Positions 16,015-38,057 of a stretch of DNA of 64,000 nt are shown in pieces; position 1 is the first letter of the stretch, and each line of letters begins with the position of its first letter. A model generated the notes under the pieces. It saw nothing but the letters and a program-made list of their open reading frames with translations, searched no databases and had not been told where the DNA came from. The DNA comes from Patellaria atrata CBS 101060. Taxonomy: Eukaryota > Ascomycota > Dothideomycetes > Patellariales > Patellariaceae. The stretch is taken from the NCBI GenBank assembly GCA_010093705.1, contig MU006096.1, positions 488,163-552,162 of the forward strand, in the 5' to 3' direction. A program made the translations under genes and the position numbers.

Positions 16015-16368
16015 TCAAATATGTTTCGTGGATCCAATCATCTCTCCTTTAACCTTCATCCAATCAATACTATTATCAAGCTCTTCATTTACAAGCCCGC
16101 AAACAACCACAGTGTCCCCTCTGATCATGTAGAGGCCATGTTCGACTTGGGAACTATCGACTTCATCATTCTGGCTTCGTATTAAGCGCTCGATGGTGTC
16201 ATTGAGGACAAGATTTGTCATCTGGTCGCAGGATAGTAGAGTTCCAACTAATGTTCGACCATCGACGGTCATTACAATGATCTTTTCTATCAAGTAACTA
16301 TCAGCTTGAAGAAGGGTAAGGACAGCCTGAAGATTCCACTTACTGTTTAGATATGGGTTTAGCGCCAT
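16015..16368 (-). CDS. LSM8: U6 snRNA-associated Sm-like protein LSm8
   Basis: Two exons on the minus strand, 16344-16368 and 16015-16286. The first is only 25 nt and codes MALNPYLN. Splicing restores a normal 98-aa LSm8: NKKIIVMTVDGRTLVGTL (Sm1), RGDTVVVCGLV (Sm2) and the C-terminal IGSTKHI. Reading straight through the intron would insert about 19 foreign residues into Sm1. LSm8 distinguishes the nuclear LSm2-8 ring, which binds the U6 3' tail, from the cytoplasmic LSm1-7 ring. Confidence 0.95.
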   Translation of the reverse strand: MALNPYLNSKWNLQAVLTLLQADSYLIEKIIVMTVDGRTLVGTLLSCDQMTNLVLNDTIERLIRSQNDEVDSSQVEHGLYMIRGDTVVVCGLVNEELDNSIDWMKVKGEMIGSTKHI

Positions 16369-16679
16369 CTTGGGAAGGAATAAAGGAGTCAATTCCGTTT
16401 CCCGAAAGTGTGTTTAACAGTGAGTAAGCCAAAAGAATGAAGCAGTCCAATTGAAGCGTTAATATCAATATGAGTCGTAAGTTCCGCTGGCTAGAGGTTG
16501 GTAACTTGAGGTTTACCAGCCGGTGAGCTAACTAAGTTAACATTAACGTGCTTCACCAGTCAGTGGGCCACCCCACCAAGATCAACCCGCGTCTTCGCAC
16601 GATTACTCCACTACAACAAAATATATTCGAAAAAAATTATGCTTAAGAGCTACTTAAGATACTAGTACATTGACGCCTT

Positions 16680-18224
16680 GTGTGGCCTTGGTTATAACAG
16701 TTAGAGCACCTTGGTGGTGCTCGCTGTCGCGTCTGACCAGCCCAGCTCTGGTCGGCCTGCTGCTCCCTATTTTCCAACTCCTCAGCTATGAGCTGAGCCC
16801 GCTGAGCCTATAAAGCCCCTCCATGCGCAATATACCTTCGGCGGTGCTGCTGCTTCTAATTTCGGCGTTGATTTTCCGTACGAAGCTCTGAATTCCCCTT
16901 TGCAAGTATGGTAGCGGAATGCATCGCCATCTGGCATCCTTTAACAAGTTGATTGATTGCTTGGCTAGTAGGGCTCTGTGACTGGCGCCGAAGGATGTCC
17001 CGTATGAGCTTTGCTTGCTGCTCTAGCTGGATAGTAGTATATGACGTTTCTGAAGTCCATTGAGGTGCTTCCCCATTAGCCGTGCCTGGTAGAGTCGGAG
17101 TCTTCGTGATTGGAAGCAACGATATAACGCGCTCAGGATCGTACGGCACTAGGCGCGTAGCAAGAAATCCGCTTCTAATATTTTGATCTATAAAGATAGA
17201 TAGCCGCGCCTTAGTATATATTGCTAGGAAGTCTTCTTTATCAATATGGTGGACTCCATAACGAGCGAGCTTTTGAACCTCGTGACCGTACGCGACCTTT
17301 AGAGGGGAGTAGCAGCTTACGTCAAGCGGCTGAAGACGATATAACGTATACGATAGCATATAAAGCGTAATAATCTTGTTTTCCATACAGTATTGGTCGA
17401 ATTCAGGCGTCGCGTGGCTACTATAACCGTCAAGTATAAGTAGACGGTAGACCCCATTCGTACAAAACTTTATATAGTTATTAAAGTGCTTAATCCATTC
17501 AAATCCTAGTTTCTCTATTGTCCAGCATTATCGCTAACAGCGAGTATCCAGTCACTAGGTACGCTCCGATACCAGCTCGACTGGTGGAGCTTTCCTGGAA
17601 GGATGATGAAGGGCGGGATTGCCCACCCAGTCGCATTAACGCACTCAATCGCCGTCGACCATTCGCGATTGCCTAGTTGTATTAGAATTGCTCGGCCTAT
17701 GGTATCGGAGCTTGTAACGACTTTCGATGTCGCAGATACACCCATCATGAATCCAGTCTCGTCAAAGTTGTAGCTATCGTCGTCTAGGATGCCGTACTTC
17801 TGGCGCGTCTCATTTACGCGCTCGTACCACTCGCGATATACGTCTCGATCTTCGCATTTCGCGCGTTGAGAATGGAACTTCCTATTCCATTTTGTCTATA
17901 GGTCTGGCTGGTTGTTGATAAAGCGGCATACCCAGTCCTTACCGACAGGTGTGGGAGGAGTCTAGCCCCGCGCGGCGAGTAAATGGTCTGTCATTCGGCG
18001 TACGTCGATGATATGGGGCGGAAATCCGCGTCGGTCGAGGTCTAGGATCCATTCTACGAGTGCCTGCTCTTCAGATAGCTGTAGCTTTCGTTTTCGCGAG
18101 TTAGACGCGCTCTAAGGTATTACCCCGTATACTCGACGACGGAGTGTAGACTTTGGATTATCGTACAATGTGGCGGCCTTCCGGATACTTGAAATCCTGT
18201 TTTCTTGAAGCGGCTTAGTAGCAA
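16680..18224 (-). pseudogene. Left-arm pogo transposase remnant
   Basis: The minus-strand copy retains QPLDVSCYSPLK, holding the third catalytic Asp, but is interrupted elsewhere. TAG codons sit at 17896-17898 and 17962-17964 where the sister arm has CAG. A 1-nt deletion lies near 17,520, inside the block that reads SDNGW in the other arm. The second catalytic block has also drifted (LDGYSSH where the sister reads LDGHGSH). The C-terminus keeps a CCHC-like knuckle with its His replaced (CSNCYNQGH in place of CSNCHIQGH). Confidence 0.85.
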
Positions 18225-19826
18225 GAAGGTAGATTACTTATTGCTACTAAGTCGCTTCAAGAAAACAGAATTTCAAGTGTCCGGAAGGCCGCCGGATTGT
18301 ACGATGTTCCAAAGTCTACTCTCCATCGTCGCGTACATGGCATAACACCTCAGAGCGTGTCTAATTCGCAAAAACAAAAGCTACAGCTATCTGAGCAGCA
18401 GGCGCTCGTAGAATGGGTCCTAGATCTCGACCGACGCGGATTTCCGCCCCATATCATCGACGTACGACGAATGGCAGACCATTTACTCGCGGCACGCGGC
18501 CAGAATCCTCCTCCCACACCCGTTGGTAAGAACTGGGTATGCCGCTTTATCAACAACCAGCCAGACCTACAGACAAAATGGAATAGGAAGTTCCATTCTC
18601 AACGCGCGAAATGCGAAGATCGAGACATATTTCGCGAGTGGTATGGGCGTGTAAACGAGACGCGCCAGAAGTATGGCATCCTAGACGAAGATAGCTACAA
18701 CTTTGACGAGACTGGATTTATGATGGGTGTATCTGCGACATCAAAAGTCGTTACAAGCTCTGATACTATAGGCCGAGCAATTCTCATACAACCAGGCAAT
18801 CGCGAATGGTCAACGGTGATTGAATGTATTAATGCCACCGGGTGGGCAATCCCGCCCTTCGTTATCCTTCCAGGAAAGCTCCACCAGTCAAGCTAGTATC
18901 AGGATCTACCCGGTGACTGGATGCTCGCTGTTAGCGATAATGGCTGGACAACAAATAAGTTAGGATTCGAATGGATTAAGCACTTTGACAACTGTACAAA
19001 GTCTTATACAAAGGGGATCTACCGTCTACTTATACTTGACGGTCATGGTAGCCACGCAACGCCTGAATTTGACCAATACTGTATGGAAAATAAGATTATT
19101 ACCCTCTGCATGCCGTCGCATACGTCATATCGTCTTCAGCCGCTTAACGTAAGCTGCTACTCCCCTCTAAAGGTTGCGTACGGTCACGAGGTTCAAGAGT
19201 TCGCCCGTCATAGAGTCCACTATATTGATAAAGAAGACTTCCTAGCAATATATACTAAGGTACGGCTATCTGTCTTTATAGATCAGAATATTAGAAGCGG
19301 ATTTCTTGCTACGGGCCTAGTGCTATACGACCCTAAGCACGTCATATCGTTACTTCCAATCACGAAGACTCTGACTCCACCAGGCACGGCTAATGGGGAA
19401 GCACCTCAATGGACTTCAGAAACACCACATACTACTGCCCAGCTAGAGCAGCAGGTAAAGCTTATACGGGACATCCTTCGGCACCAGTCACAGAGCCCTA
19501 CTAGCCGAGCAATCAATCAACTTGTTAAAGGATGCCAGATGGCGATGCATTCCGCTACCATACTTGCAAAGGGGAATTTAGAGCTTCGTACAGAAAATCA
19601 ACGTCGAAAACGGAAGCAGCAGCACCGCCGAAGGTATATCGCGCATGGAGGGGCTCTACAGGCTCAGCAGGCCCAGCTTATAGCTGAGGAGTTGGAAAAT
19701 ATGGAGCAGGAGGCCGACCAGAACTGGGCTGGTCAGACGCGACAGCGAGCAGCACCAACGTGCTCTAACTGCCATATCCAAGGCCACACAAGGCGTCAAT
19801 GTACTAGTGTCTCAAGTAGCTCCTAA
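18225..19826 (+). pseudogene. Right-arm pogo transposase remnant with C-terminal zinc knuckle
   Basis: An open frame without Met begins at the centre of the palindrome. It includes a psq/HTH-like segment (RKAAGLYDVPKSTLHRRVHG), a CENP-B/Tc5-type DNA-binding region and a DDE_1 domain (YNFDETGF, LILDGHGSH). A TAG at 18894-18896 replaces the TGG seen in the left arm. The third catalytic Asp is changed to Asn (AAC at 19146-19148; GAC in the left arm). The C-terminal end carries CSNCHIQGHTRRQC, a C-x2-C-x4-H-x4-C zinc knuckle. These transposases insert at TA dinucleotides; this copy cannot be active. Confidence 0.87.
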
Positions 19827-22028: not shown

Positions 22029-22636
22029 ATGCTATTCAAAAACCTCCAGACAATCATCACATTCGCAACCCTCATTTCCATACCAGCAGCACTCGCTGAC
22101 TTTCGCATCTATCTTGGTGGCGACAATTCAATTAGTGAAGGTGGTTCTGTTGCTTTTAACGGAGCATGGCTTCTCAATGCTGAACCGTCATGTGACGATA
22201 TCTACAACAGCGTCATGCTGATTAACGGGTACAACGATGTGACCGAGTCTGACGACTGGGCGTGCGATGGCTGTGATGCCAACGAATCAATCGGAAATCT
22301 CCCAATCACTCGCTTCGAGATCGGGGATAAAACCAACGACAGACAGACTACCAGTGGAGGCCTCGGTTATATTACACTCTATCCCAAGCCGGATGGAACT
22401 TACGACTTGACTTATAGCGCTGAGGCCGATGGCCCTAATGGATCAAGGGGCTATTGCAACCGTGAGAATGCTAAGGCTCATGAGTTCACGTGTGTACAGC
22501 CAGTCGGATCTTTGAACGGGAAGCATATCATTACCTGTGTACGTTTATGTCCCACAATCAAATTATGCGATGCTTTTCCAGATATTAACGTGCTTCATAG
22601 GTTACCGATTTGGTGTCTGTTGTGTCTGGCAACTAA
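22029..22636 (+). CDS. Small secreted protein with six cysteines, unknown function
   Basis: Two exons are proposed, 22029-22538 and 22601-22636, giving 181 aa and ending VTDLVSVVSGN. Reading through the 62-nt intron instead gives an unnatural hydrophobic tail. Residues 1-23 form a signal peptide (cleavage near ALADF). The mature part holds six cysteines, including a WACDGCD pair, and is acidic and glycine-rich. I recognise no family. Size, secretion and even cysteine number are those of a candidate effector or surface protein. It stands 356 bp from the leftward UstYa gene, so it may or may not belong to the RiPP locus. Confidence 0.72.
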
Positions 22637-22992
22637 AGTCCGTGTTTGAGAGAAATTGGACAGCTCGAGTCTTACACAAAACTTGGATTTTCTGTTATCT
22701 TCCTACCTGTGCTTCGACTTTCTCGCTTGCAGTCTATAGTTGAATACTAGCACTATTTCTTTCAAAATTGATTGTATATTGGTTTTGGTCATGTCCTAGT
22801 AAATGTTTTCCTATCTAGATGCCTGGAAAATATCAGAATCGATCCGCCTACTCACGCAACACCGCTCACAAAACTTATGAGCTCCCTGTTCACCGCATGA
22901 AACAAGGGTTATTTACACAGTAATATATACCTCCATATATGAATACGAAGGATCATCGCTGTGTTTCTGATGAAGAAATAAAATCCATTTGA
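22637..22992. other. Short convergent intergenic stretch
   Basis: This is the 3' flank of the small secreted protein gene and of the leftward UstYa-like gene. No coding signal was seen. Confidence 0.5.
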
Positions 22993-24226
22993 TTAGAGTG
23001 GTGGATGATAATGACCAGATGCGGTTACCGCTCCAACGTGATTTGTATCCTCCGTAAAGTTTGCGTATGCGGGCCCTAAATAGAAGCAAAGATCATTAGT
23101 AAAAGAGATTGATACGTAGGACTGAAAATACAGCGCCTGGGTCTTATTAACTTATAATTCTACTTACCAAATATTGGATGTACAACTGCACCAGGTTCAT
23201 ATGGATCAACCATCCGCTGTATTGCCCATTTGTTGATGGAATCCCAATCTACGCACTCATGTTCGTACTCCATATCACCAACCGGGACAGGATGATTGTA
23301 ATCCCATTTGTAAACAAGGGGACTGGTATCCCCATGGCACATTGCTGCTTTACGCAAGAAGTCAAGACAGTGCACTATGAACGACTTAGAGGCCATGGCT
23401 AGAATGCAGCATAATGGAGCTCACTGTTATGAAGATGTAGCAGATACTCCTCTTCCTCTGTCATGTTATGGAAATAATGGTCCTTGTTGAGAGACCTGTA
23501 AAGTCTTTTCTACAAAAGTTTGTTAAATTAGGTCAAATTGGACGCACTATTTGATCCTACTCACTATGCAATGAAGGTCATGATATACACTGATGCCGCC
23601 CATGAGAGTACCATCTGGTAAAACTACCGGGTCCCCAGACACTCCACCGAAATGGGCTACTTCTTCTTTAGTAAACCATGAGTTGGCGGCTAGCAAAGTC
23701 AGTCAAACAGGAGGGCTATACGTTGAAGATTTTGTTTACGTTTTAAGATTTGTTCCCATGCCTCGTCCAGTTCTGCTGATGGCTTCCCAAATAGTTCCGG
23801 TGCAAAACCGCCGTTTTGTATATGAAAACGAGATTTACCGTAGACAATTGACTGTCGAGCAGGGGCTTCAAACTAGAGATCAGCACGAAAGAACTAACTT
23901 TATAGAAAGGTTGGACGTTGAGGTGGTTGTTGTTGATGAAAGGGCGACTAACTCCAAACAGTATTTGGTCCGTGCGCATATCTCTTTTTCAGGGAGAGCC
24001 AAAACGAGACGAAGACGACAGTGTAGAGAGCAACAACTCCAAGATGGAACCACATCACTCTGGCCCTGGTTTTCTTCCCCTTTTGGGAGACAAAACTCTC
24101 CCACACTAGAGGAGTACTCTTGTGAGTTCCATCATCTGTTGATGCTTCTGAGCCTGACCGTAACAGTCCCTTTTCTTCTTCATAATGCTGCTCCGATACG
24201 TCAATTGATGCACTTCTGGATTCCAT
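22993..24226 (-). CDS. UstYa-like (DUF3328) oxidase A of the RiPP locus
   Basis: Six exons on the minus strand: 23953-24226, 23740-23865, 23565-23689, 23425-23509, 23168-23374 and 22993-23075. All joins are in frame and give 299 aa. A cytosolic tail is followed by one membrane helix at residues 57-79 (WFHLGVVALYTVVFVSFWL). The conserved UstYa blocks are TPARQSIVY, GKPSAELDEAWEQIL, and two HxxHC motifs, HDLHC (170-174) and HNMHC (202-206). The second motif is created by splicing across intron 4. In ustiloxin, asperipin and related pathways these proteins perform oxidative macrocyclisation of the core peptide. Intron 1 uses an AAG acceptor and is the least certain join. The gene is divergent from the precursor across 838 bp. 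Confidence 0.9.
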
Positions 24227-25064
24227 TGCTGTCAAGACTAAGGTTAAAATTTAGAAGAGGGTTAAGGTTTTGCTTTGATTTGAAAGAAAAGAGTATCATC
24301 AAGAGACCGCAGAAAGAGATGCAATTGCGCTCACCTACTTCTCTGATAGCCGTTCTTCCGATAATTATTACCCGCTGCAATGCTAGCCCCTCCTGTGTCC
24401 GTTTCCTTTGCTCATGTATTTCCATGTCAAGCGATTACGATATCTTCCTTAGTCTTCTGACCTGCAGCTGAAGTATACTGTAACCACGTTAGTAGCGTGT
24501 TATGGACCCTGGAAAACCTCTATCTGAACACTGAATATATTACTTCTTCGCCGATATCCTCCTGTATCATTTGTACTCTGCAGAAAATGCTACGATGTTA
24601 CCTTCTATTTTCCGTTAGAACCCCTTTCCTGCTTCATGTCTGACAACTGTCCGTTCATCTAGTTCTAAGACAGCAACTACGCACTGGCCCCTAACAGTCA
24701 AGCTGTACGACGAGACATTAGGAGTAATGCGGTGTTACGAACAGACTAGAGTCACTGGATTGACCAATAGCTCGAGCATATCATAGCCGAACACAATTCA
24801 CACCGACCATATTGCTACATCTCTATGAGCCTAATTCGGCGAGAAATGGCAACATAGAGCGGAAACTGTTCGAGGAACCATGCTCCTTGTCATAGACTGT
24901 CCGAAATTTTTCTCTTTCGGAGAATGCAGACGCTCTTACCTGATGATCTGTCAAGCAAGTGACACCCTCTTCGTCTTCGTATGGTTATATAAAGGGCTGG
25001 CCTTCCGCATATTTCAAGTCTCGTAGCTAGCTCTCCATTACTACAGATTCTCAATCCATAAAAT
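24227..25064. promoter_or_regulatory. Bidirectional intergenic region of UstYa-A and RiPP precursor
   Basis: The region separates the divergent oxidase and precursor genes, so it should hold both promoters. A TATATAAAG box lies at 24986-24994, about 75 bp before the precursor ATG, which is usual for a strongly expressed fungal gene. No frame here looks coding. Confidence 0.6.
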
Positions 25065-25680
25065 ATGCGTTTCGCAACTCGTCTTCTGGCTCTAGGCCTT
25101 GCTGCCTATGGTACACTCGCTGGTCCGTAATATTGAGAGTCTATCATATGATCGGATAGCTTACAATTCATTAGCTCCAGTTCCAGCCACACAGGACACA
25201 GTCACTAAACGTGCCCTGATCCAACGTAGCGCTGATGCCACTGAATCCGACAGTGCTTGGTGGGTTTACATCCCAGACCTTAACTATGACGAAGCAAACG
25301 ATATCGCGGCACGCGCCGATTCCCTTAAGATCAAGCGGGATCCGGCACAGGACAGTGATAGTGCGTGGTGGGTGTACATCCCAAACGTCAACTATGAGGA
25401 AGCAACCGATGTTGTAGCACGTGACGATTCCCTTCAGGTCAAGCGGGATTCGGCGCAGGACAGTGATAGTGCGTGGTGGGTGTATATCCCAGATCTCAAC
25501 TATGACGAAGCCGTTCAGGTCAAGCGTGATACGACAAAAGACGCCGACAGCGCTTGGACAGTCGTTATCCCACTCCGCACGTATGACACGCGAGACTCTC
25601 TCCGCAACAAGCGAGATCCATCAAAGGATAGCGACGCTGCCTGGACGGTCACTATACCTATCGGTAATTACGATAACTAG
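25065..25680 (+). CDS. RiPP precursor with five KR-bounded core repeats (dikaritin type)
   Basis: Two exons, 25065-25122 and 25175-25680, encode 187 aa. The first exon gives a signal peptide (MRFATRLLALGLAAYG, cleavage near AAPVPA); without splicing the frame stops after 21 codons. An alternative donor (GTACAC at 25111) would drop four residues and keep frame. KR pairs at residues 31-32, 73-74, 109-110, 136-137 and 165-166 are ideal KEX2 sites. They delimit five units, each with one core: AWWVYIPDLNYDE, AWWVYIPNVNYEE, AWWVYIPDLNYDE, AWTVVIPLRTYDT and AWTVTIPIGNYDN. Signal peptide, acidic KR-bounded repeats, an aromatic core and adjacent UstYa genes together define the dikaritin/ustiloxin-like class. 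The product is unknown. Confidence 0.92.
25213..25677 (+). repeat. Five diverged in-frame repeats of the precursor
   Basis: Units start at 25213, 25339, 25447, 25528 and 25615 and are 42, 36, 27, 29 and 21 codons long. Units 1-3 are close (core AWWVYIP, linker ending K-I/V-KR). Units 4-5 share AWTV-x-IP. Unit 3 lacks the roughly ten-residue linker with the VARDDSL-like stretch present in units 1 and 2. Confidence 0.9.
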
Positions 25681-26678
25681 GACTTAGTCGCCTCAAGTTC
25701 AGGGTCTTGTCAGATGCAAGCATGAACAGATCGCAACTGATCAATTACCCTATTAATCGACGATCATGAGGTTCCGGAACTCAAAGGTCTACTGGATTTT
25801 ATGGATGCAGAATGAATGATATATCGGGATCAGAATCGGGTGCTATTCCTAGTCTTTAGAACTGATATCCGCTCCTTGAAACAGTTCTACTAGCTAGTAT
25901 GATAGGAAAATGGGAATCTAGAATGCATTTTCCATGTTAATTTTCGGTGCATATCGATCTGTGAAAACCACCGTCCATATAAGCTTAATAGCTGCACGCT
26001 TGAAAGCTTAGGCGATGTGACAAAGTACTGTAAGTAAACGGTCCGTTAGATGCGTCTCGCTTGACCCTGATTCCCGAAGCCCGTCTTCATATTGTCCGAG
26101 ATCGTAGTGCTCCCGCACGGGTATGCTCAACACCCTGGTTTGCATTGCAGGAAGAAAAGAACTAGTCCGTCAGGCAAATACGCTGAGCTGTTGTTAGAGC
26201 TGTACATTTCTTTTAGAAACATCTTCAACTTTCAGATATGAGGGTGGAATTGTACCAAGATTCAAATCAAGCTCTTGCTTTTTGAAAATTTCTCTCTATC
26301 ACTCCGCTCATATCATTAGTACTGCTCTATTATATATCACCCGTGGGCGGTTAAACTAGAGGCACACCGGTCGAACTGTGTTTCTTCCGTTTCACATTTG
26401 TTGTATCTTGCGGTTCATGATAGGAAAACCTAGATTTTCCCAATTGCGTCTTGAACTCAAAACTCACGTATCAAATGCCAATTCTAGTATGTGATCCAAT
26501 GTCGACCGCTTAGGAGCTCGTTCGGTGAATATAATCCTTGGGCATTCGGAATCACTAAGAGCCGAAAGGATGCACATACATCCGGTACATAACCGTGATG
26601 AAATTATACACAATCTCATGCAGCAGACAAGAACCTCTTATCCTGAATAATATCTCTACGGCAATTCATCCGAATCCG
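25681..26678. other. Intergenic, 3' sides of precursor and UstYa-B
   Basis: About 1 kb between convergent genes. No coding frame, no further precursor repeats and no recognisable tailoring-enzyme fragment were seen on either strand. Confidence 0.6.
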
Positions 26679-27678
26679 CTACGGAGGAGAATCCCAAATC
26701 TTCTCGCCCGGCAGAGGATGTAAGGCATACCGACTGGGCAGATCGGGGATCTGTCTCCGTACAGACCACTCCCTTATGCTGTCAAAATTTCGACAAGAGT
26801 GCAAAGTATTGAAGTTGGGATAGGGGTCAGCATGGCCTTTCACCCACCGATAGGGGATGATTGTAACATCTGCATCGCACATGAGCTTTTGGCGAAGCAT
26901 GTCCGCACAGTGATCGAAATGATGATGTGTCGTGCGGTCTGAATCGGTGAACTCGGCAGATCGGTTCTTATAGTACTCGTGGTTCCAGATACTCGACTTG
27001 CGCATGAAGTTCTATTCTGGTTAGATGATAGAATTGATATTGATTGAGGGTGTGGTTCTGTACCAGACAGTGTAGATGATGAATCACTTCGAGAGAGCCC
27101 ATGTATCCTCCTCCCGCCTCTTCTGGTACTTTTGTGGTCTCAATATCGTAAGGAATCGCTGCGTATTCTTCCTCTGTGATCATTGTCACTCGGACTTTGG
27201 ACGTTGTGAGAATCTCAATGAACTGACTATATTTCTTGAGTAAACTTACACCCTTCAAGCTCTTGCCATGCCTCATTCAACTCTTCTCTTAGTTCACCTC
27301 GGAAGGGGGAATCTAAAATGATAGACCCATTGAACCTTACATCATGATAACTTGTGTCTATCTCAGCAATAGCAGGTGCTGTTTCGATCGTCAAAAGAAG
27401 CTCCTATAGAGTGCATTCATGATAAACTCACAATATGTGGAATGCATCTCGAAACATAATCTTTTCAAATCTTGACCGAACCATGGACCGATAACTGATC
27501 CAACAAGCAATGAGATGATTCCTGTTGCGGCACACAGTAAAAAGCACCCCATCCAGGACGGTCCATGTTGAAAAGATCTCTGAGATTTTGATGAGAGTGA
27601 TGCCTCTTGAATTGAAAATTGCCCATTTTCATCTTCTGTTAAAGAAACCTTTTGGTAGTTGCAAACAGCCATTAGCAT
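26679..27678 (-). CDS. UstYa-like (DUF3328) oxidase B of the RiPP locus
   Basis: Four exons on the minus strand, 27432-27678, 27250-27378, 27064-27194 and 26679-27011, encode 279 aa. A membrane helix at residues 43-65 (MGCFLLCAATGIISLLVGSV) follows a short cytosolic tail. The family blocks are YSPAIAEID (formed across intron 1), ELREELNEAWQELEG, ITEEEYAAIPYD, and two HxxHC motifs, HHLHC (164-168) and HFDHC (200-204). The next ATG, six bases in at 27672, is an alternative start. Intron 2 (GTAAGT to AAAG, 55 nt) is inferred from frame and family alignment and is the weakest join. Two different UstYa proteins also occur in the ustiloxin cluster, suggesting two separate oxidation steps or a heteromer. 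Confidence 0.9.
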
Positions 27679-30311
27679 CAATATCTGCTCACAATTTTTG
27701 CGGTTCCACTAGCTCTTGCAATACTTCAAAAGTGCAGAGAAGAATGGAGATTCATGCTCTGCAGTTCTGGGAGGAGCGAGATGTTCGTGCTGACTATATT
27801 CCGAATGCATGGTTTCGACTGTTTGTACCCGGTGTACTGTACTTTGCTGTAGTTCAATATGTTTTAGCAGCGGGCATTAAAAAAAGGTGCGTTATTGAGT
27901 ACTACCTTCCATATCTGTAGATGTGAGTAGGTATCTGTACAGTCGAAAGATTGGACTAGAATCGTACTAAGACGACATACTAGGGTCGGGTTGCGTGTGA
28001 AGGAGCAAGGAGCCTTCTAAGCGAGCGCGTATGCGATGCATAAGTTCAATATCCTCCGTATAATATACTGCATACAGATTTACAGCTACGGCGGATTAAT
28101 AGTCTTATAATTGAGAGTTTACTGCTAGAAATATCGTATAGTTGTGTCCGAGGTCGATAATGAGATCGTCGCCAAACAGTTTACGCTTTTCCAATTTCAC
28201 GGATAATCTAAATCGTATATGCATTCTTATTGATAAGGATCCAGATCGTGAAGTGAGTACAACTACATCATAGCTTAATACCGCGTTAAGATCAGCGGAG
28301 GAAGAACTGTGGAGTGTAAAGGGCATATATATCGTATGTACCTGATATATTTCGCAAGTAGTTAACGGGAGGAATTCGGAAATTCGTGATTTATAGCCTT
28401 GTGACACTGCGCCGATGGAAGAATACCGAGCAGACACTTTAAGAGTGTAGTTGGTATATTGCATCAATGCGGACGTAGTTCAAGGAATGGTCGTAGGAGT
28501 ACGTCTGTCGCTGGTTGCAATTGTTAGAGACTATGAATATCATGCATATAAAAGGGACATTCATACATTAGCCTCGTTGCCACTGGTACTTACTGATTGA
28601 TTGTAGGTTATCACATCCTTTCAGGTTGGACAAATGGTCCAGCCGCTATTTTTATCGTATAGCGGTGAGGTCAAGACGACCACCACCGACATAGTTTTTC
28701 CATTTGTGAGTACATAACTATTGGAGGGCTGAACTGTGAGACCGAGATTACCTAATCGTAACAACAATACTGCTAAGTTACATGTCTGGGCAACCTGACT
28801 AATATTGAGCTTTGTCTGGATTAGCCCATGAAGAAATGATCCATAGCTCTCTGTATTCCTGGGGTCTGATTTTAATAAGAATCTATATTTGGGATTATCT
28901 TCCTACAGCTAAAGTTGCCCACAAGAACGGGAACAGCAAGCTCATGATTCTTGTTTCTACTAGAACGGTATATTTGATAGAGTGAAATGGTGAAAGTCTA
29001 GAGCATTACTGAGGTCGGAAAAACGAGAGAGGTATAATGCATTTCTGTATTACTCTGTTGGGGTGGTTCCAAAGGAAGATTATTCGATAGAAATGTTTCG
29101 ATAGATCGAAAAGATTGATCAAGAATCGCTTAGGGGATATTAGAGCGGAAACTGAGATTCTGTGAACAAGTATATGCGCTAGTCATACGTGATACTTATA
29201 ATATAGGGTTACACCTCAGCTTCCCACTTTTATACAGGTGCCACGAATGTGAGACATTGAAGGTAACTACTCGTCCCTTTCATATCCAGACGCAATAGGT
29301 AAAGGAGAACCGTTGGAAAGTGGTATCGACTATAGACTATTCCGAGATAACTATCATAGCTTTGTGGTTAGCCCTAAAAATGTTTCAGACGGGATATTAG
29401 TCCTTCAGATCTGTCACTACGACGTAAATTAAAAGTAATTGAGAGGCTCAGTGCGGAACAATGACCTGAAAGGAGAACCTCCAAAGGATATACTTGGCTC
29501 AGATTGTTTTCCTGAAACTCGTCGAGCAGATCGCATATTTTCTAGCGGTATTTGTCTGGCAAATTACGGCGGTGTGTCTGCGCTACAGGCGTTTTTTCAG
29601 ATTAGTGATCACATGACGGCACTCGTCCTATGCTAATATATTCGTGGTACGCGAAAGTATCAAGATCTAGAGCGAAAGGCTCTATACGATCTCTATATTA
29701 GATTTATGCTCGTTCCAGGGTGATAAACCGTTCCTCTTACCTTCCTACTAAATGGAGTACCACCCCCTGGAACCAAGCTGGAGCCTGAGGACAACTAACA
29801 GAGCTCAATTCATTGCTCGTGCAGCATCGTGGATATAGTAGGTAGCGCAGTACTTCATGTGCCTCTGATGTGTACTCGATCTAGGTACTGTTAGGGGTCA
29901 AACAAGTTTTTAGCCAGTCTAGAGGCATTCGAGAAATATAATTCTATATTAACGAAATGGTTAGGATAGCAATAAGGTCAAAGACGCACGTGAATAGAAC
30001 TTGGGCTTTCACGTCGCTACTTTAAACGCTGACTTACAATATCTCAGGGGTCAAGTATCCATTCAGATCACCAGAAGAAAGACAGTTTTCTGGACTTAAC
30101 ATAGAAGTAATCCTCTCTATCCATCTAGAATGCTGAGGTGACCAGTATTGATTGTAGGCAAATGCTGAGGCTGGTGAAGTGGAGTATGATGACAAGAATT
30201 AGCGGAGTGTCGGGCTAGAGCTCGGCAGTAGGAAATATCCGTAAGCGGACTGTGTATGCTTTATACATAAGATTTTCGTCCACATTTTCTTTTGACATTT
30301 AATCGTAATTT
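27679..30311. other. Gene-poor stretch with a possible receptor remnant
   Basis: 2.6 kb without an intact gene. The only coding-looking segment is a minus-strand frame at 28105-28467. It ends with SIRMHIRFRLSVKLEKRKLFGDDLIIDLGH, written here as one 10-residue hallmark: FGDDLIIDLG. That pattern is reminiscent of PTH11-type receptors. The remainder has stops in all frames. Confidence 0.45.
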
Positions 30312-30398
30312 GCCCGCATGGCTTAGTGGTACAGCGTCTCACTCGTAGAAAGTCATCTCGGTATGAGAAGATCGGCGGTTCGATTCCGCCTGTGGGCA
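30312..30398 (+). tRNA. tRNA-Thr(CGT) with 15-nt intron
   Basis: The sequence folds into a full cloverleaf. The acceptor stem GCCCGCA pairs with TGTGGGC, with discriminator A at 30398. The D stem is GCT/AGC, the anticodon stem TCTCA/TGAGA and the T arm GGCGG-TTCGATT-CCGCC. The anticodon loop places CGT after the invariant T33. A 15-nt intron at 30348-30362 sits one base 3' of the anticodon, the standard eukaryotic position. A run of four T at 30407-30410 is a plausible Pol III terminator. No CCA is encoded, as expected. Confidence 0.87.
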
Positions 30399-32316
30399 CG
30401 TGATCATTTTCTTTTGGCATTATTTTTGCAGTTTTTTTGTCTAGATTTGTAAGATCCTCTGTAGCTTCGATAGATGTTGTCCTTTACCTATGATTTTGGC
30501 TCAAACTGAGGAGTTGCACGCGCACTATGGGGTGGCCGAGTTTAAATCTAACTTTCCCCCTTTAGGATTAGCCTGCCTTGGCATACTCATATACTTCACT
30601 CGCCCGAGAACTTCTATCCTTTAAAGGCCTGAAGATGCTACCAAAGGGCCAGAGAAGATAGGGAAAAGCAGGTAGCAAAATCATTGGAACACCAAAAAAT
30701 AAACCTAGTTGAGTGGTCCACGATACTAACAAGCCCTTGGTAACATCTTCAGGCTTTTAAAGGATAGGAAAATGTAGGATTCGGGCTTCGAAATCCAGCC
30801 TTTAGAATAAGAGGTTCGCCGAAATCAATTACGATTCCCCCATCAATCACTTAGGGTTTATTCTACCTATCTTCCTAGTTACGCTACTTAGGGGCCTCGA
30901 GCCTACGCAATCTCATGGTGTCGAGTTCCTAGGTGTAAAATATATTCCCGACTTTAGGAATTTTAACATTAGGAATTTCAACTTCAGGATTTACACTGGA
31001 CGTTCAACGAATTATGTATTATTTCCTAATCCAGCTACTTAGGATCGCGTTTTCTTTCCACCATAAGATACGCCATAGAGACCCTCTCTAATTTCGACTT
31101 CAGGAATTCGGACTATAGGGTGAGACGTTCAACGAGATTGAATGCGAACATCTGAATATGCAACTAAAGTCTATCTAAGGACTACCTTATATAACTTCCA
31201 TGGTCCGGAATTAATGAAGTGTGGATGTAAATTTACATCCTATTGTACCTATTCAATACCATCCAGTCTAAGGTTTCCCATCTCAAACATAATGCTGATT
31301 CTATGGTTTGGTGGATTGAGTACGAGACACGGAGTTGAATACTAGTACTTATTCGAGGAGATCATATATAGGTTCTGGATCAGGAATTAGCCAGTTGCTT
31401 TCTATATATCCCCAGAATGAGTTCACTTCCACATTTCCCCATATTCCCAAAGCTCTTGAAACTGGTGCTGATGTGATGAGACCTGCTACTGTTTTCTACC
31501 CGGTCCCACTGGGTCTCTATTATACCCCATAGGAGCTTACAACCAAGTGAACCAATACTTTAAGGGTTAGTCATATGGGCAAAACAGAACTTTGGTGTCT
31601 TGACCTATACTCATACCGAGGATATCCTATTTCCCAATCATTTTGTACGCATATTGGTTTCTTTCGACTTAAAAGTACGTTCTAGTCAGAAGATGCCATT
31701 TAGCTCTCCTTTTTAGTCGTAGAAATCCTCCTTATTTTTGTAACATTGTCCAGTTAATATCTCTTATCCTAGTTGGCGCATATTGTGCAGTGCTATCTGT
31801 GATATACTCTGTTAGTCCCACTTGGATCCAGTCACGCCATGGGACCGTTTGCGAGAAGTCTGATCAAAGCTGTAGATAGACTTATCTCTCAAATGACTTG
31901 CTCCCATATTTCAAATGATATGTTCTCTCAAACGTCATGCTTCAATTTTTCAAACGACATTCTCCAACCTCTAAACATCATACCCCGATTCACAAACCGA
32001 TTCCAGGACGAAGACTCACCGGGAACGCGTGCACAAGAGAATGTGGGGGCTCTGGGTCTAGTATGATATCAAGGAGAACATTTATCAAACGAATCTCAGG
32101 GATACATGCATGAAGTGTACCTGTTTCAGTTAACTCATGTTCAAGACTCTGCCCCTCCCTTGGACTTCATTTCTTCTAATTACCTATCAATCTGAGATCG
32201 TCTCACTTCACCGCTTTGAGATCTAACCAGCGTCGCTAAGGCGCAACCCATATCTTCATGAGATCTCATTCAACGTTCGATCTCGTCAAGGTTTAGCCCT
32301 CAATACTTATTCTGCG
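30399..32316. other. Gene-poor stretch with inverted repeat and degenerate repeats
   Basis: Besides the inverted repeat at 30602-30786, short phrases recur in diverged form: a TTAGGAATTT-like phrase between 30,950 and 31,100 and GACGTTCAACGA twice, near 31,008 and 31,126. No intact gene is visible. Confidence 0.5.
30602..30786. repeat. MITE-like inverted repeat
   Basis: A 34-nt arm at 30615-30648 (TATCCTTTAAAGGCCTGAAG... reading right) is matched as an imperfect reverse complement at 30734-30766, separated by 85 nt. A weaker outer match, GCCCGA at 30602 and TCGGGC at 30781-30786, extends the symmetry to about 185 bp. It has no coding capacity. Size and symmetry suggest a miniature inverted-repeat element or a fold-back relic. 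No target-site duplication was established. Confidence 0.55.
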
Positions 32317-33537
32317 ATGTTCACTCTTTGGCAACCCAATATGGATGTGAATCATGATTCCACAGCTGATTCTCAACCTCCCCGAAAGAAAGTATGCCGC
32401 AACAAACCTAACACGCTAGTCAAATCCTTTGAAGATGCGGCGGAATCTATACGGACTCATATTGATAAGATGCACAAAGCGAAGGATCCGGCTCGAGAGC
32501 TCACGATTCTGAGGATCGTCTAAAGGAAGCGAAAACCGATTTTGCGACTCTCATAGCACCTTTGACGTCGCTTTTTGACGAGGTTTAACCTTTGCATCAA
32601 GGAGAATTAGGCATACCGAGAGAGATTCAGAAGCCTTTGTCAGAAATTGCCAATTCGCTTCACAAACTATATGGATCCAAAACTACCTCTCGTAAAATAC
32701 TGTTCTTGGTATACAAATTAGCGAAATGGGACATCCCGCTCCATCCGAATTATCATAAGGATTTGAAAGAGACAATGGAGAAAAGTACATCTGGGAAGCG
32801 TCATTGAGAATTCATTTTCACTAACAGATTCTTTCGGAAACTCGCCAGTATATCGAAAAGGAACAATCCCCGGATCACTCCTCAGCTATTATTCCAGATC
32901 CGTCTCTTAACCCGGCTCAATGTCCGACTACTATCTCCAACGCCCAAGTCAACTCTACATATGAAATAAGAGAAATTCCAAGAACCTATAGCGGGAGCGC
33001 AAGACGAGTATTACTAACTCTCCAACGAAATCCGTCAATCTCTGGGGCTTATAGGAGTCTATAATATCAAAATTGAGGTTGCTCTCTGAGAAGAATGGGG
33101 ATGGATTATGGGACGACGGAAAACAAGCTGGCATTCAAAAGATAACAAGCATGTGAGTATCGTGCTTAGGAGCATAAGTGGCAGACGCAAAACGTACCGT
33201 CGGTATATAGACAGTAGACGATCATTTAGCGAAGAGTTACTCCATATGCACAAAGAAAAGAGTACTATAGATACTCTTGCTAGCATAGGAACAGATTTGT
33301 ACCTTCACGGTGATACTGGGATGTTCTGTTGGGATGCTTATTGACGAAGAAACGAGCACGAAGGGCAAGGATTCCTCTTGTCATTGCTTAGGATATACTC
33401 CTTTGAGTCTTGTTGCTTTGGCTGGTTCTACTGAGTCGATCGGGACTACTGACATGGCTGCTGGTGCCATGGATAAAGCACAATTGATGTATCTAAAGCA
33501 AAAGCATACTCTGGACTTTAGGCCTCAAGCTAGATAA
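32317..33537 (+). pseudogene. Decayed gene or intron-rich unrecognised gene
   Basis: Several adjacent plus-strand frames look coding. One starts MFTLWQPNMDVNHDSTADSQ (32317), continues as an amphipathic helical region (KSFEDAAESIRTHIDKMH), then shifts frame near 32,510. It is next interrupted by TAA at about 32,586 before PLHQGELGIPREIQKPLSEI. Later blocks contain ILSETRQYIEKEQSPDHSS and SISGRRKTYRRYIDSRRSFS. The composition is helical and charged, and I recognise no family. A frameshift and a stop argue for decay, but unseen introns could explain part of it. The boundaries are those of the coding-like area only. Confidence 0.4.
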
Positions 33538-33540
33538 TAA

Positions 33541-34136
33541 TCCTCTACGAGAACTGGTTGATTTCTTCAAACCCCGTTCGCTTATGTCAGCTTCTCAGTC
33601 ACAGAGTCGTTATTTTCGAACGTTCCATTGTTCACAGTATGATTCACAAGAGGAGTAGTCGGTACTATTCCGGGCAAAAGTGCTGGAGGAAGAGGATATG
33701 TTGAGGCGATGTATACTCTGTCAGATTTGAGTACCGGTTTCCTTGTCGTGTCGTTTTCCTACTGTATATACACTCGACCCAGGAGCGGATTCGGACTACA
33801 CCTGAAAGGAAAAGCGAATTCTATGAAGGAGCCCCTACAGTACCGCGAGATTGACCGCACAGTGAATTGAAATTGACAATACACTGGAATCAACAGACTA
33901 ATCGTAGTTACAGAGTATGCGTAAAGAGGGGGAAGGATGTCGACCGGGACACCGGAAGGAGCAGGTAAGAAGGTACTGTACTTACGACCATCCGGGATGG
34001 AGTTTGTGGACATATTATTGAAACAAGTAGGGTAGCGGAAGTAAGTCTAACAAGGCATCCAGCGCTCACATGCCAGCCAAAACTTTCAACGACCAGAAAC
34101 GGGTTTGGTAATTCTAACACTTACTACTTGCTTCTG
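33541..34136. other. Intergenic, 3' side of the DUF3237 gene
   Basis: About 600 bp. A minus-strand frame begins with STNSIPDG at about 34,013 and another with LELPNPFLVVESFGW near 34,120, possibly remnants of a second small gene, but I could not build a model. Otherwise empty. Confidence 0.4.
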
Positions 34137-35122
34137 CTACCCCTTGACAACCTTGCTAACTTTGTATTCCACCGTGATCTTGCCGTCCTCAAAGATGAAA
34201 CGGCCTGCAGCGACAAAAACCATGGTCTCGAGGGACTTAAACTTAGAAGAACCGGTCTAACATCATAAGTATACTTTCAGCTTTGGAATGATGATACATA
34301 CCTCAAATTGGAAAGTCACGACTATACATTTAATTTAGTGAGCGCGAGGATTAGACACCAGAACAGATCACATACAGGAGTCCCCCCAAGGAGTTGTTTC
34401 TGCATCCGATGAACCTGTGAGTACTTTGACTACTGCAGGAGTCAATACGACATTTCCCTGATAATACATGGCCAGAAGCTTTTACGATTAGTAAGAGAGA
34501 GATCCGTCAGAGTCTTAGAAAAGACAAGGTACATACTGCGCCGTCCTTGTCCCTATAGTAGATGGAATCAGCTTATATTGAACCACTGATCAGATAATAT
34601 TCTTTACCTCAGTTGAGACCGAACATCAAGTCGCATATGTTCACCAGATGCATCGTTATGTATATAATCGTAACCGACACCATGTCTACCGATATCAACA
34701 CACGTGAACGGCCTTGGTTAAATGAAAACGGGCGAGTAGACGTACAATTCGGCTTCAATTGCAGGTTCAAACCCTGGCTCAGACTTGACTGTGCCTCCCA
34801 CCATGGGCTGAAGTATATTTAGATTATAGCTCATAGAAAATACCTTACCCGAGTATTCGCAGCTGCATATATACTTTTACCATTGGAATGTAGCGAGATT
34901 TAACCTACCACAACAGACAACGGAGTCCCCTTGGATGCAGAACCTTGATTCTTTCAGCTACAGCCGTCTAACGAGGTAATCATCTAAGTATTTGCTTACC
35001 AATTTGAAAGGGAGCATCGATCAAGACCTACAGCCGTGTCAAGTCTCGATATATGAAAGATTCGAAAAATCAAACCCTACCCTGACTGTAAAAGCCGGTT
35101 GAAGAGCAGGATAGTCTGTCAT
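34137..35122 (-). CDS. DUF3237-family protein, nine small exons
   Basis: No single frame is long, yet nine exons on the minus strand join in frame to 167 aa: 35081-35122, 35000-35027, 34909-34943, 34746-34807, 34608-34685, 34537-34552, 34376-34478, 34302-34321 and 34137-34256. The product carries the DUF3237 pattern: IDAPFQIGSASKGTPLSVVP, MVGGTVKSEPGFEP, HMRLDVRSQL, YYQGNVVLTP and the closing VTFQFETGSSKF and VFVAAGRFIFEDGKITVEY. The family is a small beta-barrel of unknown biochemical role with no signal peptide. Exon 6 is only 16 nt. Splice sites are mostly good GTRNGT...YAG. Whether the protein has any link to the RiPP locus 7 kb away is unknown. Confidence 0.85.
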
Positions 35123-36549
35123 CACGAAGGTTGTACAATCTTTCTATAATTCGATCTACCCCTGAAACTGGAAAATAGTGATACAATGCTTAAAGACAGA
35201 TAGACGGACAAATAAGTATATACTGATATATATAGAGGATGCGGAACATTGAAGAATGTCGAAAATTGGGTCATGTCGTTGAGTGATTTCTCATCATCCC
35301 CGCCTCCAAATTCTACTTAGCCTCGAACCTTTTCCCCCTTTTCTCCGAACCTACATTATTAAGCCTCCCTCCGAAAACTGGGAAAGACCAACGCGTCTAC
35401 TCCGCAATTCATACACCTCATCAGACGGAAGGGATTCGGTCAGGAACAGGCAAAGATGACTCTCTAGAACTGGTGCGGAAAAACGACTACGTTGCTCAAC
35501 ATTTATCGATGATTGTACTGCAACCGTCCCTGTAGTCCTTCCAGAAGCAGGGAAAGAAACATGCAGCTATAGTCTCACTATCGCTAGAAACAACATATTC
35601 TTCCCGTTAGCAGAAGAGCTACCTACTCATCCACGATCTTTTTAGACGTCCGGTCTTCAACTAGCATGCTCTAGGTTTCCTGCGCTCGTGGAATTTGCAT
35701 CTTTCTGCATGGTTGGACTATTACTTCGTTCCTCTAGTCTTTACAACCCGTGGTTCCGCTCCCATAGTCATACCACTGATCGAGAGGGGATAAATGAAGA
35801 GAATAGAAGGAGAGAAGTAGGTGCCTTTACAGTACTTCTAACTTAGCATGAACCGAAATATTCAGAATGACAACTGGAATCGGCAACTCATCCCAGCATA
35901 CTGCGTTTTCAGGTAGGCTTTTCTTCGTATGATTTCAATACTCTCACCAAGCATCTCGCTTGAAGGAATCAAACTTCCTAGATATTCCCCCTCCAAGACG
36001 TTATAATTCCTAGTCTCACCCTAGAGTTTCACGGAAGGGCCGAAAAGTGAATACGCTTCCAAATCCCTTGCTAGAAATGCCGGGACCAGGCCGTAGAGCC
36101 GATCAGGACGATCTGTCAGGGGAGTATCTGACCCCTTTCCGTGTCAGCGTCAACCTTTGCATCTCGAGGGAGGATTCAAAGCGTTGGATTAAAGTTTCGT
36201 CCAAGAGGGTTCTAAGCTCCCCCGGATCTCTAGCTGATTGATACCCAATAGAACCGTATGATAGATTCCATGATCGCGGAAGCGAGTAATCGAGGTCCAG
36301 ATCGCGGAAGCGTACTAGTCATGGTGACGATGGCGCGTTTTCTTCCGTTGATAATCTACCTTAGGTTTGAGTTTTGCTAACGTCGTGCCCAATCGTTCCT
36401 CATTCTTGACATTTAACACCTTAACTTCTCAGTCACAAATTTTGTTTCCCTATCTGATCTAAGGATCTTTTCTTTCCTTGTTCTTTTCCTCATTCCTTCG
36501 TATACTGCAATTCTTTCTTTTCAACCCGGTCCTCTACTACAGACCCGTT
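35123..36549. other. Intergenic between divergent DUF3237 and receptor genes
   Basis: About 1.4 kb. Frames are short, and the sequence GATCGCGGAAGCG occurs twice (near 36,272 and 36,301). The T/C-rich run 36,430-36,520 should be the receptor promoter. No gene could be modelled. Confidence 0.45.
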
Positions 36550-38057
36550 ATGGTGGAACAGCTTCAAGATGCCGCATTGGCAATAACCATTCTATTCCCT
36601 GCAATATCGACAATCTTTGTCATCTTGCGGCTATGGTCCAAGTTTGTTTTACGGCGTCTCCATTGGGGTGAGTGCCTTTACATTCCACCTCTACTCACCT
36701 TGTAAACCACGGGTGCGCTGTCTACCTACTTGTATCTTATTCCTGCAACTATTCAAGGGTTTTGTTAGCTGACATTCCAATCATAGATGATGCTCTCATT
36801 GTTTTGGCTTGGTTATTGATAATTGGGCAGACTGTATCTGTTTATAAAGGTACGGCTAGATTATTCCGTGTCATTGACCGCTCTCTCTATGCTCGGTTCC
36901 CTTTGATTAAACTTGAAATGTTGTATAAGAAGCTTCGAAGGAAAGGCTAACTTTGGATGGTACTCCGTACAGTCATAAAAGTCAGTTATATTGGCTACCA
37001 TATCTATGATATTCCTCAGGTCGATCTACACCAGCTCACCGTTGGAAATATCTACAATTTCGCCAACCAGCTATTTTACTATCCGATTTTGTGCATCATC
37101 AAAGCCGCGGTCATCATTTTTCTCTTGCGTATCGGGGACAACCGTCCAGCCGTCAAGATATCTTTGCAGGTTCTCTTTGCGGTCAATCTTATGATGCTCG
37201 TAGCTTTTTGGCTTACCGATTTATTACAATGTACACCACTAAAATATGTATGGGAATTTATAGAGATGGATATCGAAGCTCAGATAAAAGCAGGGGCAGA
37301 TGAAAATGGAATGCTGAACGGGGAATTGGTAAAAGGGGGAAAGTGCATTGACCAAGTCGGCTTTTTCATTACCAGTGCTAGTCTTCACGTTGTGACGGAC
37401 GTGATAGTACTGGTGATCCCTATGGCCATGGTGTGGCACTTGCGCATGGTGATGAAGAAGAAGGTCGCAGTCATCGTCATACTAAGTCTCGGTTGGGTGT
37501 AAGTTCCCCTCCGAGTTCCCCACACCAGGCAAGAGTATGAAAACTCACCATATCCCGATAACAGAGTGACCGGCGTCAGCATCGCCCGTCCCATAATCTT
37601 CAAGCGCGACCTCAACCCCAACCGCCCCGACCCAACCTACGGCGTCGGCATCACCATCTCCGGCATCGAAGTAAATCTCGCTCTCATCGCCGCCTGCGCT
37701 CCCGCCCTCAAAGCCCTCACCAAGCGTTTCGCGCCCAAGATCTGGTCCAACTCCTCACAGACCCCAAATCCATACCAAACCGCCTACGGCAACGGCAATT
37801 CCATTCCTCTGCAGAGCGGACACGGCCAGGGTACGGTACATCGGTACACGGGCCACCAAACGAGTCGCGCGGAGGGGGGTTACGTGAAGGGTAGGAAGAC
37901 CACGGGGATGAATTTGGAGAATGATAGTCAGGAGGAGATTATGATGGATCACGCGAAGAATGGGATTATGGTTAGGACCGAGATTGCCATGGACGAGACG
38001 GATGTTGCGGAGAGTCAGAAGAGTCGGGACAGTTTGAACAATGCTAACAAGGTGTAG
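36550..38057 (+). CDS. PTH11-like seven-transmembrane receptor (fungal rhodopsin-type domain)
   Basis: Four exons, 36550-36667, 36787-36849, 36982-37498 and 37565-38057, encode 396 aa. The protein starts MVEQLQDAALAITILF. The typical signature VILRLWSKFVLRRLHWDDALIV (split by intron 1) marks the Pezizomycotina-specific PTH11/rhodopsin-like group. Several hydrophobic helices follow (FYYPILCIIKAAVIIFLL, VLFAVNLMMLVAFWL, DVIVLVIPMAMVW, GIEVNLALIAACAPAL), then a polar cytosolic tail of about 120 residues. These receptors sense surface or chemical cues, but ligands are mostly unknown. There is no CFEM domain. The acceptor of intron 2 could also be nine bases upstream, in frame. Confidence 0.85.

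Follow-up and report, generated by a model that had tools for sequence, protein, structure and literature searches.

The locus described here, in the ascomycete Patellaria atrata CBS 101060, poses the question of whether a secreted repeat protein encoded between two UstYa-type (DUF3328) oxidase genes is the precursor of a ribosomally synthesized and post-translationally modified peptide (RiPP). It lies in a window, by which we mean the whole 64,000-nucleotide stretch analysed, corresponding to 488163-552162 of contig C8 in an assembly of 28.3 Mb and 46 contigs. Judged from gene content and sequence motifs, this is very probably a compact RiPP locus in which a KEX2-type repeat precursor is accompanied by UstYa enzymes that would cross-link or oxidise its cores. 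The genes, repeats, Lys-Arg (KR) sites, motifs and linkage on which this reading draws are directly visible in the DNA. Literature statements below are drawn from excerpts of the cited papers.

The precursor is encoded by an open frame at 25096-25677 together with a 5' intron, giving a product of 187 amino acids. Its features are as follows.

25065-25680, plus strand: precursor gene, 187 amino acids, secreted type, one 52-nucleotide intron; model re-derived from coordinates
25065..25122, plus strand: exon 1, ATG at 25065, hydrophobic signal-peptide-like stretch (by hydropathy)
25123-25174, plus strand: intron of 52 nucleotides at the 5' side, canonical GT..AG
25175..25680, plus strand: exon 2, with the pro-region, the five repeats and their KR sites, and the stop codon at 25678-25680
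25255..25287, plus strand: core 1, AWWVYIPDLNY
25363..25395, plus strand: core 2, AWWVYIPNVNY
25471..25503, plus strand: core 3, AWWVYIPDLNY, identical to core 1
25552..25584, plus strand: core 4, AWTVVIPLRTY
25639..25671, plus strand: core 5, AWTVTIPIGNY

Residues 1 to 19-20 are hydrophobic, with a top 19-residue hydropathy of 1.44, and the signal peptide is judged by hydropathy only. The KR sites divide the protein into a 32-residue start followed by segments of 42, 36, 27, 29, and 21 residues; KR closes four of the five repeats, and the fifth forms the C-terminus, its 21-residue segment having no terminal KR. All five repeats share the pattern A-W-x-V-x-I-P-x3-Y, in which A1, W2, V4, I6, P7, and Y11 are invariant and positions 3, 5, 8, 9, and 10 vary, and a search for W.V.IP...Y in the six-frame translation of the window returns five matches, exactly these cores. 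Cores 1 and 3 differ by five silent and no replacement changes over their 11 codons, while the nine codons preceding them carry three silent and five replacement changes. The picture is less clear for other pairs (two silent and two replacement codons between cores 1 and 2; one silent and five replacement between 1 and 4), and because these carry more replacements, selection on the whole core is visible between near-identical cores only. Outside such pairs, the six fixed residues are the sole sign of core selection.

The two flanking genes are both transcribed from the minus strand and both match the DUF3328 family.

22993..24226, minus strand: UstYa-A, 299 amino acids, six exons, splice model, Pfam PF11807 at 3.5e-41
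24226-23960, 23872-23740, 23689-23565, 23509-23425, 23374-23168, 23075-22993, minus strand: UstYa-A exons
UstYa-A protein: hydrophobic stretch from residue 57; motifs HDLHC (170) and HNMHC (202)
26679..27678, minus strand: UstYa-B, 279 amino acids, four exons, Pfam PF11807 at 9.4e-55
27678-27432, 27378-27250, 27194-27064, 27011-26679, minus strand: UstYa-B exons
UstYa-B protein: hydrophobic stretch from residue 45; motifs HHLHC (164) and HFDHC (200)

Each protein has one strong hydrophobic segment, presumably transmembrane (by hydropathy only), and paired HxxHC motifs, and the two are 27% identical in an alignment of 223 columns. The spliced UstYa-B model is identical over all 279 residues (100%) to the Patellaria atrata CBS 101060 hypothetical protein M501DRAFT_975262, and the next relative, the closest among the matches listed, is 41% identical. 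An alignment of UstYa-B with 31 relatives (32 sequences) shows H164, H167, C168, and H200 to be invariant, with H203, C204, C214, and C242 kept at 90% or more. The predicted UstYa-B structure is of moderate confidence (mean pLDDT 72.9, pTM 0.61) and has a long N-terminal helix at 42-79, with the motifs on helices 161-178 and 194-215. No relevant solved structure was found by sequence (best E 0.74), and a fold search of the model against the PDB gave nothing at E 0.001 (best 2.5). CctR is a DUF3328 binuclear copper enzyme that requires these motifs, and is described as having a transmembrane helix and motifs on paired helices (PMC12435403); the UstYa-B model is likened to it by this description rather than by direct model comparison. 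By analogy, UstYa-A and UstYa-B probably carry out copper-dependent oxidation.

The second UstYa-A motif, HNMHC, arises only across a canonical 50-nucleotide intron at 23375-23424; a reading of this motif as broken was dropped, as the intron restores it. The splice choice was itself steered by the motif, so that HNMHC is no independent test of the splice. Neither the precursor nor UstYa-A was found as a public protein, as UstYa-B was, and both may be absent or differently modelled in the public annotation.

These models bear out much of the first-pass annotation, which had proposed a 187-residue secreted precursor, now upheld by the frame, the 52-nucleotide intron and the hydrophobic start, with a conserved core lying between two membrane-anchored DUF3328 proteins bearing paired HxxHC motifs, on which Pfam, hydropathy and the motifs agree. 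Its outer coordinates, 22993 and 27678, coincide with the outer ends of the UstYa gene models. It had also described five KR-bounded repeats; the number stands, but only four end in KR.

How much weight should the linkage carry? The gaps between the precursor and its neighbours are 838 and 998 bases, with one UstYa gene per side, and under simple random placement of about seven UstYa genes in 28.3 Mb the chance that both sides would have one no farther than 1.7 kb away is about 2e-7, a post hoc figure. UstYa matches occur at six places in the genome, with at least nine exon matches in about seven genes (all lower bounds). Approximately 20 kb was fetched around each of the five places outside the window and scanned for repeat frames without regard to introns, and two of these five have a repeat frame with KR sites about 0.9 kb away from the UstYa match. 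The repeat scan as a whole covered 287 candidate frames in 30 sequences, with overlapping loci counted repeatedly. Scores of at least 57 were reached by the present precursor and by the repeat frames on contigs C6 and C2 with their overlapping copies; the next score was 34, and nothing in nine tyrosinase and KEX2 loci exceeded 28. The C6 and C2 frames resemble the precursor in having KR repeats near UstYa, but their cores are unrelated.

The first of these, at C6:328578-328964, has six FEADxLLxV...SSY repeats with only two KR sites between them, and a start resembling a signal peptide is found upstream in a different frame. The second, at C2:569621-569857, has EFxDxxYxxLY repeats with KR sites; in-frame stops occur upstream among its repeats, and it may be spliced or decayed.

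What would such a locus make? The signal peptide would bring the precursor into the secretory pathway, where the two membrane-anchored UstYa oxidases, with an HxxHC...HxxHC copper site on the lumen side, would oxidise the cores; secretory entry, KEX2 cleavage and the luminal copper site are carried over from work on the family. Cross-links would most likely join the aromatic W2 and Y11 to the beta-branched V4 and I6, the pairings allowed by the fixed residues being W2-x-V4-x-I6-P7 and I6...Y11. A KEX2-type protease, for which the genome has one P_proprotein domain match, would cleave after KR, exopeptidases encoded elsewhere would trim the flanks, and up to four distinct core peptides would be released (cores 1 and 3 being the same). 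The two oxidases may correspond to two cross-links, or to one requiring both, as with UstYa and UstYb (PMC6514808). Expression, processing, cross-links, secretion, activity and product are all predictions of this scheme.

A more specific proposal is that the UstYa pair closes rings through W2, to V4 or I6, to give a Trp-bridged and probably bicyclic peptide with Y11 as second anchor; we regard this as possible but doubtful. Such a bridge would be new chemistry for the copper enzyme family, because in the UstYa-linked closures described in the excerpts the aromatic residue is Tyr, or Phe in the case of victorin. Repeats with DUF3328 neighbours are enriched in Tyr (65.6%, versus 38.2% without; PMC7329392). 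Trp-bearing cores in general are not new, since precursor type P-3, with DUF3328 neighbours in four of its seven members, has W with P (PMC7329392).

Several observations weigh against a RiPP locus of this kind, the last of them also against the Trp bridge. Genome-wide there are 23 tyrosinase matches (21 of 21 candidates scored) and four S41 peptidase matches, none of either on C8 and hence none in the window, and none of the 95 P450 matches (92 of 102 candidates scored) falls in the window. The precursor had no homologue among 287 candidates in a protein search at E 0.01. The UstYa-A splice model has no outside support, and a protein search found no relatives of UstYa-A among 406 candidates at 0.001 despite its strong Pfam score; we do not claim orphan status for the protein. 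No repeat frame was found by the intron-blind scan at three of the five other UstYa places. At 21 to 42 residues, the segments between KR sites are long enough that further protease trimming would be needed. Cyclisation is not certain, because DUF3328 proteins also act as hydroxylases, halogenases and desaturases, and are known from non-RiPP pathways too (PMC12048977, PMC12435403, PMC10512285). Finally, repeats with DUF3328 neighbours show no enrichment of Trp (20.5%, versus 24.5% without; PMC7329392).

This range of activities leads to the alternative that survives best, although we think it unlikely, namely that UstYa action on the cores is hydroxylation or desaturation without ring closure, yielding oxidised linear peptides from a locus of unchanged type. 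CctR is a hydroxylating enzyme (PMC12435403), UstYa homologues of the phomopsin pathway also desaturate residues (PMC10512285), and the lack of a tyrosinase match in the window fits as well. However, aromatic and beta-branched residues are conserved in all five cores, and in the asperipin-2a pathway one UstYa homologue closes two rings with no tyrosinase among the four genes (PMC6514808).

It is quite improbable that the repeat protein is instead an unmodified KEX2-processed secreted peptide, such as a pheromone, surface or signalling peptide, with the adjoining UstYa genes acting on something else. Most repeat precursors do lack a DUF3328 gene within 15 genes (6,120 of 7,878), and close-set Trp marks some pheromone-type repeats (PMC7329392). 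Against this stand the UstYa genes on both sides, with the low chance of such placement in the simple model, and the KR repeat frames close to UstYa at two of the five other places; moreover, DUF3328 neighbours were recorded for none of 227 precursors of the yeast alpha-factor type and for three of 216 putative fungal-pheromone precursors (PMC7329392). The precursor matched no Pfam family at E 0.001, pheromone families included, and tandem XA/XP dipeptides of alpha-type pheromones were not seen by eye.

That the locus is decaying and its product no longer made is very improbable, as all three genes have open exons, GT..AG introns and intact motifs and silent changes dominate between cores 1 and 3, even with gene-poor surroundings, transposase pieces at 16.9-19.8 kb and in-frame stops in the repeat frame beside UstYa on C2.

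The candidate RiPP locus stands in the following surroundings.

16018-16413: LSM-domain frame, left neighbour
16859-17527 (minus strand) and 18222-19823 (plus strand): transposase frames, DDE_1 and Tc5-type, left of the locus
From 36951: fungal-rhodopsin frames, right neighbours

The Pfam set for the window comprised 50 sequences: the precursor, both UstYa proteins as spliced, and a selection of 47 frames rather than every frame. Between the LSM-domain and rhodopsin frames, those tested gave only transposase pieces, the three locus genes and frames without a family. No transporter was found among the frames given to Pfam, and the genome MFS search scored 8 of 256 candidates, which does not establish absence. 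The plus-strand frame at 22029-22649, adjoining UstYa-A, encodes a secreted-looking, cysteine-containing protein with no Pfam match. The interval 27680-36960 holds 35 frames of 60 amino acids or more, of which 19 were scanned against Pfam; 16 were blank and three had matches below family cut-offs only. A multi-exon gene at approximately 30.8-34 kb, considered for its many short plus-strand frames, is unsupported, with no above-cut-off match in the scanned frames; the region at 28500-36500 (about 8 kb, many short frames) is taken to be gene-poor and may derive from an old transposon.

To what class does the locus belong, and is it new? Precursors of the KEX2-processed repeat type (KEP) are defined by an endoplasmic reticulum signal peptide, repeats of at least eight residues between KEX2 sites and no segment above 100 residues (PMC7329392), and the present precursor agrees with all of this, its segments being 21-42 residues long. 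Both flanking proteins show the UstYa/DUF3328 combination of paired HxxHC motifs and one N-terminal transmembrane helix, the second motif of UstYa-A being splice-dependent. In the broad sense, dikaritins are products of repeat precursors cyclised by UstYa homologues (PMC10512285), and with its KEX2-site repeats and nearby UstYa genes the locus is a candidate for that class, the cyclised product being a prediction. The first-pass annotation had called it dikaritin-type, which holds in this broad sense of a KEX2-type multi-core precursor with two UstYa genes, but not in the narrow, phomopsin-like one, as the tyrosinase, S41 peptidase and Zn-finger regulator of that gene set (PMC6514808) have no match in the window. 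Of 67 Zn_clus matches none lies within C8:488163-552162, the nearest among the matches listed being at C8:473227. The first-pass annotation had itself reported no tyrosinase or P450 nearby, and the genome matches to both indeed lie elsewhere.

Its description of the locus as previously undescribed-looking applies to the core and not to the arrangement. Four core strings gave no match in a paper search, the precursor search in its own genome returned only itself, and the name Patellaria atrata is absent from the text of PMC7329392, as is Patellaria from that of PMC6339444 (main texts, exclusive of supplements). The new part, as far as searched, is a core with an invariant Trp; the kind of locus is common and well known in fungi. 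The survey of 1,461 assemblies in PMC7329392 lists 7,878 repeat precursors, 1,758 of them with DUF3328 within 15 genes (averaging 1.7 each), and reports no significant accumulation of tyrosinase genes around repeat precursors, with a small peak where DUF3328 is present. Set against those 1,758 predicted loci, the number of dikaritins reported as of 2022 was just five (PMC10512285). With three genes and naturally varying cores, the present locus would offer a compact test of which residues UstYa enzymes cross-link, and of whether Trp is suitable; the possible Trp bridge is what most merits further work.

Among known systems, the ustiloxin and phomopsin loci share with this one a signal peptide, KR-separated repeats and UstYa/DUF3328 genes, but differ in that no tyrosinase or S41 peptidase match occurs in the present window. 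Their EDYxI motif (PMC6339444) is not in the present AWxVxIPx3Y cores; the aromatic-x-beta-branched order is shared, with Tyr as the N-terminal aromatic residue there and Trp here (PMC7329392). The I-P step is present in the phomopsin core too, in the form given in PMC7329392, as the first-pass annotation had noted. Asperipin-2a is alike in its small locus without tyrosinase and its oxidative ring closure by a UstYa homologue (PMC6514808), and unlike in having one such homologue with a transporter and a reductase, whereas here there are two, and the Pfam-scanned frames include neither a transporter nor a reductase. Victorin, compared by description rather than sequence, likewise has a multi-core precursor, KEX2 processing that is thought likely and a ring formed via an aromatic side chain (PMC9233826), but differs in being chlorinated and in its use of Phe and Leu. 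The epichloecyclins and their precursor GigA, again compared by description and not sequence, have a different core from the one with invariant Trp found here, but share a multi-core precursor with imperfect repeats and an Ile N-terminal to Tyr (PMC9233826), as with I6 and Y11 in the present cores.

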